From NCBI RefSeq assembly GCF_037860835.1, contig NZ_JBBEOG010000001.1, positions 1 through 64,000 on the forward strand: a DNA stretch of 64,000 bases. Direction: 5' to 3'. Below, one piece after another: positions 28,304 to 34,310 of this stretch (positions are counted from its first letter, which is position 1; every line of letters begins with the position of its first letter). A program made the translations under genes and the position numbers. The notes under the pieces are model-generated. The model was not told the DNA's origin. It ran no database searches and was given only the letters and a program-made list of their open reading frames with translations. This DNA is from Aquipuribacter nitratireducens. GTDB taxonomy: Bacteria > Actinomycetota > Actinomycetes > Actinomycetales > JBBAYJ01.

Positions 28304-29716
28304 ATGGGGCCCGTGCGCTACGCCAGCTCGGTCGTCGACCTCGTCGGCGGGACCCCGCTCGTCCGTCTCAACCGCGTCACGCACGGGCTGTGGGAGGGGG
28401 CCGCGCACGGTGACGGCCCGCTCGTCCTCGCGAAGGTCGAGTACCTCAACCCCGGCGGCAGCGTGAAGGACCGGATCGCGCTCAAGATGGTCCTCGCCGC
28501 GGAGGAGTCCGGGGCCCTGCAGCCCGGCGGCACGATCGTCGAGCCGACGAGCGGCAACACGGGCGTCGGGCTCGCGCTCGTCGCCCAGCAGCGCGGCTAC
28601 CGCTGCGTCTTCGTGTGCCCGGACAAGGTGAGCGAGGACAAGCGCAACGTCCTGCGCGCGTACGGCGCCGAGGTCGTCGTGTGCCCGACGGCGGTCGAGC
28701 CGAGCCACCCCGACTCCTACTACTCGGTCTCCGACCGGCTCGCGCGGGAGCTGCCCGGCGGCTGGAAGCCCGACCAGTACTCCAACCCGGCCGGTCCGGC
28801 GAGCCACTACGAGACGACGGGCCCGGAGATCTGGGACGACACCGAGGGGCGCATCACCCACTTCGTGTGCGGCGTCGGCACCGGTGGCACCATCACCGGC
28901 ACCGGGCGCTACCTCAAGGAGCAGTCCGGCGGCGCGGTGCAGGTTGTCGGCGTCGACCCGGAGGGGTCGGTGTACTCCGGCGGGACGGGACGGCCGTACC
29001 TCGTCGAGGGCGTCGGTGAGGACTTCTGGCCGACGGCGTACGACCCGTCCGTGCCCGACGAGATCGTCGCGGTCTCCGACGGCGACTCCTTCCACATGAC
29101 CCGGCGGCTGGCGCGCGAGGAGGGCCTGCTCGTCGGCGGCTCGTGCGGGATGGCGGCGGTCGGCGCGCTCCGCGTCGCCCAGCGCCTCGCCGAGGAGGGG
29201 CACCCGGACGCCGTCGTCGTCGTCCTGCTGCCCGACAGCGGCCGCGGCTACCTGTCCAAGATCTTCGACGACCGGTGGATGGCGTCCTACGGCTTCCTCG
29301 GCGGCGGGAACGGCGACCGGACCGCGGCCGACGTGCTGCGGGCGAAGGCCGGCGACCTGCCGGCGCTCGTCCACACCCACCCGAACGAGACGGTCCGCGA
29401 CGCGATCGAGATCCTGCGGGAGTACGGCGTCTCGCAGATGCCCGTCGTCAAGGCCGAGCCGCCGGTCACCTCCGGCGAGGTCGCGGGCGCGGTCAGCGAG
29501 GAGCACCTGCTCGAGCGGGTCTTCACCGGTCGCGCGTCGCTCGCGGACCCCGTCGAGAAGCACATGGACTCCCCGCTCCCGCTCATCGGCGCCGGGGAGT
29601 CCCTCGACGCGCTGCGGGAGGCGCTCACCCTCGCCGACGCCGTCCTCGTCGTCGGCGACGGCAAGCCCGAGGGCGTGCTCACGCGCCTCGACCTGCTCGG
29701 CTTCCTCGCCCGGTGA
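28304..29716 (+). CDS. Cystathionine beta-synthase
   Basis: A 470-residue PLP enzyme. The catalytic domain carries Lys55 in GGSVKDR, the substrate loop TSGNTG and the PLP-phosphate loop GTGGTITG. Two CBS domains follow (about 340-470; e.g. DAIEILREYGVSQMPVV), so this is cystathionine beta-synthase rather than plain cysteine synthase. No haem domain is present. It would condense serine with homocysteine; the matching cystathionine gamma-lyase-type enzyme is at 38447. The stop overlaps the following PHP gene by 4 bases. GTG 28313 is an alternative start. Confidence 0.93.
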   Translation: MGPVRYASSVVDLVGGTPLVRLNRVTHGLWEGAAHGDGPLVLAKVEYLNPGGSVKDRIALKMVLAAEESGALQPGGTIVEPTSGNTGVGLALVAQQRGYRCVFVCPDKVSEDKRNVLRAYGAEVVVCPTAVEPSHPDSYYSVSDRLARELPGGWKPDQYSNPAGPASHYETTGPEIWDDTEGRITHFVCGVGTGGTITGTGRYLKEQSGGAVQVVGVDPEGSVYSGGTGRPYLVEGVGEDFWPTAYDPSVPDEIVAVSDGDSFHMTRRLAREEGLLVGGSCGMAAVGALRVAQRLAEEGHPDAVVVVLLPDSGRGYLSKIFDDRWMASYGFLGGGNGDRTAADVLRAKAGDLPALVHTHPNETVRDAIEILREYGVSQMPVVKAEPPVTSGEVAGAVSEEHLLERVFTGRASLADPVEKHMDSPLPLIGAGESLDALREALTLADAVLVVGDGKPEGVLTRLDLLGFLAR

Positions 29717-30984
29717 CGGACGGTCCGACCGCATCGGCGGGCGCGCTCCTCCTGCGGCCGGCCTCGCGCGGGGAGGAGCCGCGTGCCGGTGCCTCGCGCG
29801 CGAGCGGCCTCCTCGCGACGGCGCACGCCGACCTCGTGCGCGGCACGACCCTCCTGCACGCCGACCTCCACAACCACACCGACCTGTCCGACGGCGCCGG
29901 GCACGCCGACGACGCCTTCGCGTGCATGCGCGCCGCGGGCCTCGACGCGGCGGCGCTCACCGACCACGCCGGATTCGCGGACGCGGGCGCGCTCGCCCGC
30001 GTCCGCGAGGTCGTGCCGTGGGCGGGCATGCCCGTGAAGACGATCGAGCAGGCGGACTTCCTCCGCGCGACCGAGATCGCGGACGCCTTCGACGACCCGG
30101 GCGGCTTCACCGCCGTCCGCGGGTTCGAGTGGACGACCCCGCACCTGGGGCACGTCAACGTGTGGTTCTCCGAGGACTGGCTGCCCCCGGACGACCGCGT
30201 CGGGATCGCGGGGCTCCACGACTGGCTGCTCGGGTCGCGCTCCGGCGACGACGCCCTGTTCGGGCTCAACCACCCCGGTCGCGAGCCGCTGCGCTTCGAC
30301 GGCTTCCGCCACGAGCCCCGACTCACCGACCGCATGGTGAGCATCGAGGTCTTCAACCGCGACGACGACTACCTGTTCGAGGGCTACCGGCTCGGGCAGG
30401 CGAGCCCGCTGCTGGAGTGCCTCGACGCCGGCTGGCGGCCCGGTCTGCTCGGGGTGTCCGACGAGCACGGCCGCCGCTGGGGCTTCGAGCCCGGCCGCGG
30501 CCGCGCCGGGCTGTGGGTGCGCTCGTGGGACCGCGGGGGGCTGCGGGAGGCGCTGCTCGCGCGGCGCTTCTTCGCCACGCGGGAGCCGGGGCTCCGGCTG
30601 GACTGCGTCGTCGCCGCCGGTGACGGTGCGGGGCGGGCGGCTCGCATGGGCGGCACGCTCGCGGTCCCGGCCGGTACCCGCGAGCTCGCGGTGACCATCG
30701 ACTGCGAGGTGCCGCCGGACGTCGCGACCGACCGGCTCGAGGTCCAGGTCCTCACCCGCGGCATCACCGTCCCGACGGTGCTGGCGACCGCCCCGCTCCG
30801 CTCCGGTGAGGTGGGCGAGGTCACCGTCGGGCTCCAGGGCGACTGGGACGCCGAGGAGGTGCCGTGGCTCGTCGTCCGCGTCGCCGACCCCACGATGCGG
30901 AACCTGCAGCCCGGCCCCGCCGGCCACCCGGCGAACAACCGCGCGCTCGCCTACGCCAGCCCCGTGCAGCTCGTCGCCGCCTGA
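29713..30984 (+). CDS. CehA/McbA-like PHP-fold metallohydrolase
   Basis: A 423-residue PHP-superfamily phosphoesterase-like protein. The metal-binding motif LLHADLHNHTDLSDG lies near residue 54; further ligand positions lie in ALTDHAG, GLNHPG and GVSDEHGRRWGF. The C-terminal 110 residues look like a separate beta-rich domain. GTG 29713 overlaps the cystathionine beta-synthase stop (GTGA), so the two genes are translated together, but no metabolic link is obvious. Substrate unknown. Confidence 0.82.
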   Translation: MTDGPTASAGALLLRPASRGEEPRAGASRASGLLATAHADLVRGTTLLHADLHNHTDLSDGAGHADDAFACMRAAGLDAAALTDHAGFADAGALARVREVVPWAGMPVKTIEQADFLRATEIADAFDDPGGFTAVRGFEWTTPHLGHVNVWFSEDWLPPDDRVGIAGLHDWLLGSRSGDDALFGLNHPGREPLRFDGFRHEPRLTDRMVSIEVFNRDDDYLFEGYRLGQASPLLECLDAGWRPGLLGVSDEHGRRWGFEPGRGRAGLWVRSWDRGGLREALLARRFFATREPGLRLDCVVAAGDGAGRAARMGGTLAVPAGTRELAVTIDCEVPPDVATDRLEVQVLTRGITVPTVLATAPLRSGEVGEVTVGLQGDWDAEEVPWLVVRVADPTMRNLQPGPAGHPANNRALAYASPVQLVAA

Positions 30985-31007: not shown

Positions 31008-31045
31008 ATCCTCAGCAGGCTGATGATCGGGAGGTCGTCGACCTC
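31008..31045 (+). promoter_or_regulatory. Two stacked hairpins in the heliorhodopsin leader
   Basis: Hairpin 1 is ATCcTCAGC-AG-GCTGAtGAT (31008-31027, one mismatch). Hairpin 2 is GAGGTC-GTC-GACCTC (31031-31045), directly touching the ribosome-binding site GGGAGG (31046-31051). Neither has a T-run. No -10 box is recognisable in the 71-base gap after the PHP gene, so these could be attenuator, operator or RNA-level control elements. Confidence 0.45.
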
Positions 31046-31055
31046 GGGAGGACCC

Positions 31056-31874
31056 ATGACCGCCGACCACGTCACCGAGAGCCCCGCGGGGGCGGAGGCG
31101 GGCCACGACCCGTCCGGCTCCACCGGCTCGCTGCGCGGGCTGCGGCGCGACAACCTCGTCGCGGCCGCGCTGCACGCCGTCCAGGCGGTCGTCGTGCTCG
31201 TGCTCGCCACCGACTTCACGCTGCCCGTCACGGCGTCCTACCTCGCGGGGCCGCCGGGGTCCGGGCGGTACGAGACCGTCACGCTCTTCGACTCGCCGCT
31301 CGCGCTCGGGGTGGCGCTGTTCCTCGTGCTGTCGGCGTTCTTCCACGTCCTCGTGTCCCTGCCGGGCGTGCACGAGCGGTACCTGCGCGGGCTCGTCGAC
31401 CACCACAACTACTACCGGTGGGTCGAGTACTCCCTGTCGGCGTCGGTCATGGTCGTGCTCATCGCCCAGCTGACGGGGATCGCGGACGCCGCGGCGCTGA
31501 TCGGGCTGTTCGCCGTCAACGCGTCGATGATCCTGTTCGGCTGGCTGCAGGAGCGCTACGAGGAGCCGGGGAACGGCCGCTGGCTGCCGTTCGTCATGGG
31601 CAGCGCCGTCGGGATCGTGCCGTGGCTCGCGATCCTGCTGTACGTCGTGGCGCCCGGCTCGGAGTCCGGCGCCGCACCTCCGGACTTCGTCTACGCGATC
31701 ATCGTGTCGCTGTTCGTCTTCTTCAACGTCTTCGCCGTCGTCCAGGCCCTGCAGTACGCCCGCGTCGGCCCGTGGCGGCGCTACGTCGTGGGGGAGCGGA
31801 CGTACATCGTCCTGAGTCTGACGGCGAAGTCGGCGCTCGCGTGGCAGGTGTTCGGCGGGACGCTCGCGGGCTGA
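31056..31874 (+). CDS. Heliorhodopsin
   Basis: A 272-residue seven-helix retinal protein. Helices lie at about 34-53, 82-101, 119-141, 144-163, 178-199, 210-235 and 248-270. The diagnostic third helix reads NYYRWVEYSLSASVM, with Glu124 at the counterion position; the seventh carries Lys258 (LSLTAKSALAWQVFGG) for the retinal Schiff base, with Ser254 one turn before. His40 and His97 match the conserved histidines of the family. Heliorhodopsins insert with the N-terminus inside and are long-photocycle light sensors or modulators rather than ion pumps, with exceptions. ATG 31056 follows GGGAGG. No retinal-forming gene (blh/brp, crtY) is in the window, so chromophore must come from elsewhere. Confidence 0.95.
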   Translation: MTADHVTESPAGAEAGHDPSGSTGSLRGLRRDNLVAAALHAVQAVVVLVLATDFTLPVTASYLAGPPGSGRYETVTLFDSPLALGVALFLVLSAFFHVLVSLPGVHERYLRGLVDHHNYYRWVEYSLSASVMVVLIAQLTGIADAAALIGLFAVNASMILFGWLQERYEEPGNGRWLPFVMGSAVGIVPWLAILLYVVAPGSESGAAPPDFVYAIIVSLFVFFNVFAVVQALQYARVGPWRRYVVGERTYIVLSLTAKSALAWQVFGGTLAG

Positions 31875-31916
31875 GCCCGCGCGGCCGGGCCGCACGCGGC
31901 GCGGCAGACTCCGGTC

Positions 31917-32999
31917 GTGACCGAGCCCGTCGTCCAGGCCCCCGCCCGACCGGAGGCGCCGGGCGCGCACCCCGCGCAGGGGTGGACGCTGCTGATGCTC
32001 GGGATCACGCTGTTCGTCGTCAACGCCGGCGTGTCCCGGCTCGCGCTCACCAACGGCGCCGACCCCGTCCCGCTCGCCGCCGTCCGGATCGCGGGGACGG
32101 CGTTCGTGCTCCTCGTCGCGCTGCTCGTGACCGGGCGCGGCGCGCGGCTGCGGCTGTCGTGGCGGGAGCTGCCGCTGCTCGTCGGGTACGGCCTCGGCGG
32201 GGTCGCGCTCGTGCAGGTCAGCTACTTCGTCGCCATCCAGCGGCTGCCGATCGGGCTCGCGCTGCTCCTGGAGTACCTCGCGCCGCTGCTCGTCGCGCTC
32301 GCGGCCCGGTTCCTCCTCCGCGAGCGGGTGAGCGCGCTGCTGTGGCCGGCGCTCGCGCTGTCGCTCGGCGGGCTCGCCCTCGCCCTCGGGCTCGGCGGCG
32401 ACGTGTCGCTCGACCCGGTCGGTGTGGGCGCCGGGCTCGTCGCGGCGGCGTCGTTCGCGACGTACTTCCTCCTCGGCGAGCGCATCGTCCGCACGCGCGA
32501 CGCCCTGTCGACGACGTTCTGGGGCTTCGCGATCCCCGGCGTCCTCGTGCTCGCGGTCGTGCCGTGGACGAGCCTGCCCGGCTGGACGACGCACCCGGTC
32601 GAGCTGCCCGCGGCGATCGGCTCGGGCGAGGTCGCGCTCGCGCTCGTCGTCGCGTGGGTCGTCGTGCTCGGCACCCTGTCGCCGTTCGCGGCGGAGACCG
32701 CGGCGCTGCGGTGGATCCCGGCGACGGTCGTCACCGTCGTCGCGACCCTCGAGCCCGTCGGCGCCGCGGTCCTCGCGTGGTGGTGGTTCGACGAGTCGCT
32801 GACGACCCTGCAGGTCGTCGGCTTCGTCCTCGTGCTCGCGGGCGTCGTGCTCGCGCTGTTCTCGCGTGCGGCCCCAGCGCCGCGATCGCGGCGTCCCGTG
32901 TCCGAAGCAGCGTCTACGTTTTCGTCTACACCGCGCGTATCCTCGGCTCATGGAGACGAAGGGCGCGACGACGATCCGGGTGCGCCGCGACGTCCGTGA
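31917..32999 (+). CDS. EamA/DMT family transporter
   Basis: A 360-residue permease with ten predicted helices in two repeated EamA halves. Substrates of the family are metabolites such as amino acids; none can be assigned. It begins 42 bp after the heliorhodopsin stop on the same strand, so the two may be co-transcribed. The last helix ends near residue 320; the remaining 40 residues are unrelated Ser/Arg/Pro sequence read out of frame into the antitoxin promoter and the first 50 bases of its gene. Confidence 0.88.
   Translation: MTEPVVQAPARPEAPGAHPAQGWTLLMLGITLFVVNAGVSRLALTNGADPVPLAAVRIAGTAFVLLVALLVTGRGARLRLSWRELPLLVGYGLGGVALVQVSYFVAIQRLPIGLALLLEYLAPLLVALAARFLLRERVSALLWPALALSLGGLALALGLGGDVSLDPVGVGAGLVAAASFATYFLLGERIVRTRDALSTTFWGFAIPGVLVLAVVPWTSLPGWTTHPVELPAAIGSGEVALALVVAWVVVLGTLSPFAAETAALRWIPATVVTVVATLEPVGAAVLAWWWFDESLTTLQVVGFVLVLAGVVLALFSRAAPAPRSRRPVSEAASTFSSTPRVSSAHGDEGRDDDPGAPRRP
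32911..32943 (+). promoter_or_regulatory. Promoter and direct repeats of the pemK-type module
   Basis: CGTCTAC is repeated at 32911-32917 and 32923-32929, 12 bases apart, a good spacing for a ribbon-helix-helix antitoxin. TATCCT (32938-32943) is a -10 box ending 6 bases before ATG 32950, so the transcript is probably leaderless. The GTCTAC half-site also resembles the vapBC inverted repeat GTCTA/TAGAC. Confidence 0.45.
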
Positions 33000-33228
33000 T
33001 CGGCTCAACCACCTGAAGGACGCTCGTCAGATGTCGTTGAACGAGCTCCTCACCGCGGCCTTGGACAGACTCGAGGAGGCGGACTTCTGGCGTCGTCAAC
33101 GGGAGGCCCATGCCGCCGTTCTCGCCGACCCCGAGCTGCGCGAGCGCGCCGAAGCGGAGCGGTCGATCTGGGACGGCGTCGTGACCGACGGTCTCGACCT
33201 GGTCGACGACGACGAGCGGACACCCTGA
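32950..33228 (+). CDS. Type II antitoxin, ribbon-helix-helix type
   Basis: A 92-residue antitoxin. The N-terminus TTIRVRRDVRDRLNHL and MSLNELLTAALDRL form a ribbon-helix-helix DNA-binding domain; the acidic C-terminus would wrap the toxin. It lies directly before the PemK-type toxin, whose GTG follows the antitoxin stop with no gap. Its start lies within the 3' end of the EamA gene. Confidence 0.87.
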   Translation: METKGATTIRVRRDVRDRLNHLKDARQMSLNELLTAALDRLEEADFWRRQREAHAAVLADPELRERAEAERSIWDGVVTDGLDLVDDDERTP

Positions 33229-33585
33229 GTGCCACGAGCGGGGGTCGGGCTTCCGCGACGTGGCGACATCTGGCACCTCGACCTGGGCACGCCCATCGGT
33301 CACGAAGCAGGCGCCCGACGCTTCGCCCTCGTCGTCAGCGTCGACGCCCAGAACCGCTTCGGCCTGGCCGCAATCTGCCCGATCACGACGACGGCACTGG
33401 GCTACCCCAGTCACGTCGAGATCGACAAGGGCACCGCGGGCATGTCGGCGATCTGCTACGTGCAGGTCGAGCAGCTCCGCACGGTGTCGACCGACCGGTT
33501 CGAGACCTTCAAGGGCGTCCTGGACCCGGTGCGGATGAACGACGTGGAGCAGATCATGCGTTGGGTGCTGGGTCTCGGCCGCTGA
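33229..33585 (+). CDS. PemK/MazF-type endoribonuclease toxin
   Basis: A 118-residue toxin with the MazF fold. The N-terminal RRGDIWHLDL and the strand RRFALVVSVD are family hallmarks, as is the later ICYVQVEQLRTVS. MazF-type toxins cleave mRNA, tRNA or rRNA at short sequences. Start GTG 33229 is immediately after the antitoxin TGA. The pair is complete and looks functional. Confidence 0.9.
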   Translation: MPRAGVGLPRRGDIWHLDLGTPIGHEAGARRFALVVSVDAQNRFGLAAICPITTTALGYPSHVEIDKGTAGMSAICYVQVEQLRTVSTDRFETFKGVLDPVRMNDVEQIMRWVLGLGR

Positions 33586-33617: not shown

Positions 33618-34310
33618 TCAGCCCTCCGGCAGCTGCGCCCGCGCGACCCCCTGACCGTGGGCGGCCATGTCGTAGCCGACCTGGCAGAACCCGTGGTTGC
33701 AGTACCCGTGCGGGTTCTTCTGGAGGTACTGCTGGTGGTAGTCCTCGGCGTAGAAGAACTCGCCCGCGTCGGTGGCCGGGAGGATCTCCGTCGAGATCTG
33801 CCCGTACCCCTCCGCCTGCAGCGCTCGCTGGTAGCGCTCGCGGGAGTCGCGGGCGGCGGCGAGCTGCGCGTCGGTCGTCGTGAAGATCGCCGACCGGTAC
33901 TGCGTACCGACGTCGTTGCCCTGCCGGTTCGGGGTCGTCGGGTCGTGGTTCTCCCAGAACTCCTTGAGGAGCCGTTCGAGCGGGACGACGGCGGGGTCGA
34001 ACACGACGAGGGCGGTCTCCGTGTGGCCGGTGCGCCCGGTCGTCGTCTCCTCGTACGTCGGGTTCGGCGTGTAGCCGCCCATGTAGCCGACGGCCGTCGT
34101 GTGGACGCCGTCGAGGCGCCAGAAGATCCGCTCCGCGCCCCAGAAGCAGCCCATCGCGACGTACAGGACCTCGTGACCCTCCGGCCACGGCGGGGTCATG
34201 GGCGTGCCCTTGACGAGGTGCCGGCCGGGCACCGTGACGGGCGTCGCCCGCCCGGGCAGGGCCTGGTCGCGCGTGACGGGGGTGGTGGTCTTCCGGGTGC
34301 CGAACAGCAT
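33618..34310 (-). CDS. msrA: Peptide-methionine (S)-S-oxide reductase MsrA
   Basis: A 230-residue repair enzyme that reduces methionine S-sulfoxide in proteins. The catalytic Cys55 is in GCFWGAE; resolving cysteines are in the tail [12 protein letters not shown]. The N-terminal 40 residues are an extension also common in actinobacterial MsrA. ATG 34310 gives the expected length; the longer frame reads Arg/Pro shadow sequence of the divergent gene. Confidence 0.96.

Follow-up and report, generated by a model that had tools for sequence, protein, structure and literature searches.

Heliorhodopsins (HeRs) are ascribed a general sensory role (PMC8612252), and regulation by protein contact has been described for two targets. 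One is glutamine synthetase, in the case of the actinobacterial, subfamily-1-like AbHeR (PMC9529153), and the other is an ABC exporter, as in the OcHeR-OmrDE pair of Ornithinimicrobium cerasi, where an actinobacterial HeR adjoins the exporter gene (PMC11109279). HeR 48C12, represented by the structures 6su3, 6uh3 and 9ljj, also has a glutamine synthetase gene nearby. HeR and actinorhodopsin occur together in genomes of Rhodoluna and Aquiluna, most of which lack blh (PMC12422013).

The gene analysed here lies in a window of 64 kb, the whole stretch of DNA considered, which corresponds to positions 1-64000 of contig C1 in a 3.83-Mb genome (G000, 99% complete) with one HeR copy. Like AbHeR, it encodes an actinobacterial HeR with subfamily-1 features, but no glutamine synthetase gene adjoins it, and its neighbours also differ from those of 48C12. 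As with OcHeR, an exporter gene adjoins it, although the exporter is here an EamA/DMT permease that stays in place when HeR is absent. As in Rhodoluna and Aquiluna, HeR and a type-1 pump are found in one actinobacterial genome, but this genome has blh.

Identity of the heliorhodopsin gene

The HeR open reading frame (31056-31874, forward strand) begins with ATG, encodes 272 residues and is preceded at 31042-31055, as read from the sequence, by a Shine-Dalgarno-like GGGAGGA and its spacer. The preliminary description had recognised an HeR by the motifs RWVEYS with Glu124 and LTAKSA with Lys258, and profile and structure-based comparisons agree. The protein matches PF18761 over profile positions 1-242 of 242 (324.8 bits, E 3.9e-97; cut-off 26.7) and NCBIfam NF038020 'heliorhodopsin HeR' (318.9 bits; cut-off 100), and against the type-1 rhodopsin family PF01036 it scores 20.7 bits, under the cut-off of 24.6. 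A PDB search returned the three 48C12 entries at E values of 5e-87 to 1e-86. Residues 25-270 align with 48C12 over 246 residues with zero gaps at a constant offset of 17, the N-terminal tail being 17 residues longer than that of 48C12. The two residues on whose alignment the preliminary assignment had been made to depend both fall where expected, Glu124 on the counterion Glu107 in helix 3 and Lys258 on the Schiff-base Lys241 in helix 7. All of His23, His80, Glu149, Trp105, Tyr108 and Asn138 of 48C12 are also retained, the two histidines as H40 and H97. Of the five positions separating Kovalev subfamily 1 (PMC9529153), four agree (Ile142, Pro172, Leu202 and Gln213) and the fifth differs, Ala168 of 48C12 being Val185 here.

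In a maximum-likelihood tree of 89 HeRs, the window protein and that of a congener (G002) are sisters (100, starred), and the pair falls within a clade of 14 actinomycete rows that is likewise starred (98). The pN/pS of HeR between these two genomes is 0.30, with similar values for its neighbours, and the gene is, to judge from such sequence comparison, under purifying selection. The inverted topology of 48C12, with a cytoplasmic N-terminus, is expected from the gapless homology. By all these comparisons the gene encodes a genuine heliorhodopsin, an ordinary member of the actinobacterial 48C12-like group.

Retinal supply and type-1 rhodopsins

As the preliminary description had stated, neither a blh/brp nor a lycopene cyclase gene is present within the 64-kb window; the copies of this genome are on other contigs. 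A single-copy gene for Blh/Brp, which we take to be the beta-carotene 15,15'-dioxygenase that supplies retinal, is located at C4:180888-181718 (PF15461, E 2.5e-26, 93.4 bits, above cut-off; TIGR03753, 108.9 bits, cut-off 95.25), with no carotenoid genes recognised near it among the proteins scanned. The same contig carries a full-length lycopene cyclase gene (C4:68531-69649; PF05834, 217 bits), the product of which shows 44-46% identity to Streptomyces genes annotated 'lycopene cyclase family protein' but scores under the stricter NCBIfam cut-offs, so that its lycopene cyclase product is putative. A cyclase of the CrtYc/d type (TIGR03462) was also sought and gave no match in the genus, the cyclase being of the PF05834 type instead. 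Genes for phytoene synthase (PSY), CrtI-type desaturases and a prenyl diphosphate synthase are grouped on contig C10. Thus of the two sources previously proposed for retinal, the rest of the genome and the environment, the former is borne out by the presence of Blh, a CrtY-type cyclase, PSY and CrtI, and the latter is not. On this gene content the cell is equipped to make its own retinal, and the absence of retinal genes is merely local.

Two further features of the pathway were noted. A second CrtI/CrtD-like desaturase is encoded beside a CruG/HpnB-like glycosyltransferase and a CruF-like carotenoid hydratase (C10:15440-19096, in locus L128), a cluster probably devoted to a glycosylated carotenoid alongside the beta-carotene branch. 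Since a CrtI-type enzyme sits with the CruF-like and glycosyltransferase genes, other pigments probably receive a share of the carotenoid flux. Blh (in G000, the C4 copy at L104:8715-9866) is unusually divergent among the three congeners compared, G000, G001 and G002, at 57-64% identity where phytoene synthase reaches 81-88%.

The genome-wide search that had been proposed for blh/brp, crtY and type-1 rhodopsin genes also yielded a type-1 rhodopsin (C12:74462-75145) bearing the proton-pump motif R-D-T-E (RYVDWLLTVPLLLLE), for which the best PDB matches are of the xanthorhodopsin/Gloeobacter-rhodopsin type. As predicted from its sequence, this rhodopsin can draw on the same retinal as HeR. All three congeners carry both Blh and a type-1 rhodopsin. 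That of G002 (locus L108, G002:C7:65913-66602) has only 30% identity to the copy in G000 and an N-D-Q motif, and its best PDB matches include KR2-type sodium pumps, so that a DTE pump and a sodium-pump-like NDQ rhodopsin contrast within one genus.

Among 297 genomes sampled evenly from the order, HeR has a patchy distribution (22 genomes), and 17 genomes carry Blh. Both occurred in 6 genomes (odds ratio 9, p 6e-4, relatedness ignored), and Blh was not detected in 16 of the 22 HeR-bearing genomes, all but one of these 16 being listed as at least 99% complete. Rhodoluna and Aquiluna show the same pattern of HeR without blh (PMC12422013). As a rule, then, HeR bearers of the order lack a known retinal-forming gene, and the question of the chromophore source concerns those species and not the genome of the window.

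Genomic neighbourhood and a natural empty site

Upstream of HeR on the same strand lie genes for cystathionine beta-synthase (CBS, 28304-29716; TIGR01137, 639.5 bits) and, adjacent to HeR, a CehA/McbA-type PHP metallohydrolase of 423 residues (29713-30984; NF038032, 85.9 bits, cut-off 80). Downstream are the EamA/DMT-family permease of 360 residues (31917-32999, forward strand; PF00892, E 2.1e-28), which is probably independent of HeR, and the peptide-methionine sulfoxide reductase MsrA on the reverse strand (33618-34310; PF01625, E 8.4e-59). CBS and MsrA, both within 4 kb of HeR, are retained in all three congeners, with MsrA syntenic in G001 and G002. G002 shares the order PHP-HeR-EamA. No HeR was found anywhere in the genome of G001, in which the block CBS-PHP-EamA-MsrA is contiguous and 73 bp separate the PHP stop from the EamA start, a clean empty site. 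The presence or absence of HeR thus concerns one exact segment flanked by the same gene on either side, and the best reading of the three genomes compared is an older neighbourhood that has either acquired HeR or lost it.

Between EamA and MsrA, the region 32953-33585 encodes a PemK/MazF toxin (PF02452, E 1.6e-22) and has a small ORF resembling an antitoxin gene, neither of which was found at the corresponding sites of the two congeners. A near-palindrome, CTCAGCAGGCTGAT, is located between PHP and HeR (31011-31024), and at about the same place G002 has a perfect palindrome, CTCAGCATGCTGAG. A regulatory palindrome CTCAGC..GCTGAG upstream of HeR was considered and rejected, its genome-wide frequency not being above that of the reversed control. 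The copy upstream of the G002 HeR is the sole exact one in that genome, and the upstream regions of other HeR genes lack the palindrome.

The EamA permease and its start

The preliminary description had correctly placed an EamA permease gene 42 bp downstream of HeR on the same strand; its product scores below the cut-offs of both TIGR00950 and RhtA. The gap (31875-31916) contains a GC-rich hairpin (-20 kcal/mol in isolation) with no T run, and neither a consensus sigma-70 promoter nor a terminator was found in it. The EamA start has the form CAGACT-N6-GTG, with the hexamer 12 nt before the GTG and, unlike the HeR start, no Shine-Dalgarno sequence. The hexamer is retained in both congeners (CAGACT, CACACT). 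In actinobacterial leaderless transcripts, such a hexamer is the -10 element of promoters initiating at the start codon. Among 127 called genes of G000, taken from the window and loci L104, L113, L128 and L162, the hexamer [TC]ANN[CA]T lies at exactly -12 of the start in 13 and at -13 in 4 more, compared with 0-2 genes at any other position. Most likely, to go by this motif, EamA has its own promoter inside the 42-bp gap. Genes with the -12/-13 signature include those for EamA, Blh and phytoene synthase.

The suggestion that EamA is a functional partner of HeR finds no support beyond the genus. EamA follows HeR in G002, but it was the first downstream gene at 0 of 61 other HeR loci outside the genus, a count from simple-script gene calling in which single misses are possible. 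The count is based on EamA not being among the families matched by at least two of the 62 members scanned, the window's own being one. A tblastn search with the window EamA found no relative at any HeR locus outside the genus. Among the loci compared, the order EamA-after-HeR is confined to this genus, and the recurrence across lineages that a HeR-partner operon requires was not observed. Selection on EamA was also compared: its pN/pS is 0.30 between HeR-bearing genomes and 0.50 in pairs involving the HeR-free one, but this shift says nothing about HeR because PHP shifts likewise (0.30 versus 0.44).

A probable sensor independent of its neighbours

We consider it reasonably probable that this HeR is an ordinary self-contained light sensor with retinal from the cell's own Blh, a slow, non-pumping photocycle and a contact partner probably encoded elsewhere. 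That it might instead depend on environmental retinal, or function as an unliganded opsin, could be supposed from a window devoid of any retinal gene, from the absence of Blh in most HeR genomes of the order, and from the retinal auxotrophy inferred for many HeR-bearing Luna-1 bacteria (PMC12422013). We regard this as quite unlikely for a genome that has Blh, lycopene cyclase, PSY and CrtI and encodes a second rhodopsin likewise needing retinal, and for a protein in which Lys258 and most other checked 48C12 positions are retained. A role in a light or oxidative-stress response of the local block (MsrA, CBS, PHP), for example in light-dependent repair of oxidised methionine, would fit the conserved proximity of MsrA and CBS and the ties of HeRs elsewhere to redox genes (PMC8612252). 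It appears improbable, however, with MsrA on the opposite strand, an identical block in the HeR-free G001, and other HeR loci lacking such linkage apart from one weak MsrA match.

Another idea is that of HeR as a light switch of the adjacent exporter, joined to it by one transcript and by binding in the membrane, like OcHeR-OmrDE. The short same-strand gap, which may allow read-through, the close and conserved order in G002 and the precedent of an HeR stimulating an adjacent exporter (PMC11109279) speak for it. Yet G001 keeps EamA in place without HeR, so EamA holds its position independently of HeR, and in all three species a -10 element of the leaderless type precedes EamA itself. The gene was not found next to HeR at the loci compared outside the genus, nor is EamA included in the ten recurrent HeR partner groups described (PMC11109279), and we consider such a switch unlikely. 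A variant in which HeR was inserted, in this genus, before a pre-existing EamA/DMT exporter and now renders it light-regulated seems very unlikely; if true, such an exporter would add a class to the HeR partners described so far. More generally, the adjacent genes are poor partner candidates, since the block does not change when HeR is missing.

In the self-contained sensor that we favour, Blh would convert beta-carotene to retinal, which would be bound at Lys258. Light would isomerise the bound retinal and drive a slow photocycle without pumping, and HeR would then signal to a partner that it contacts in the cytoplasm or membrane, probably one encoded elsewhere and not the adjacent EamA. Energy capture would fall to the separate DTE-motif type-1 rhodopsin sharing the retinal pool.

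As a single gene, this is a routine, expected HeR in an actinobacterium able to make retinal. The three congeners, of which two have HeR and the third a clean empty site, all carry Blh and a type-1 rhodopsin and constitute a natural experiment in which HeR function is testable without confounding by retinal supply.
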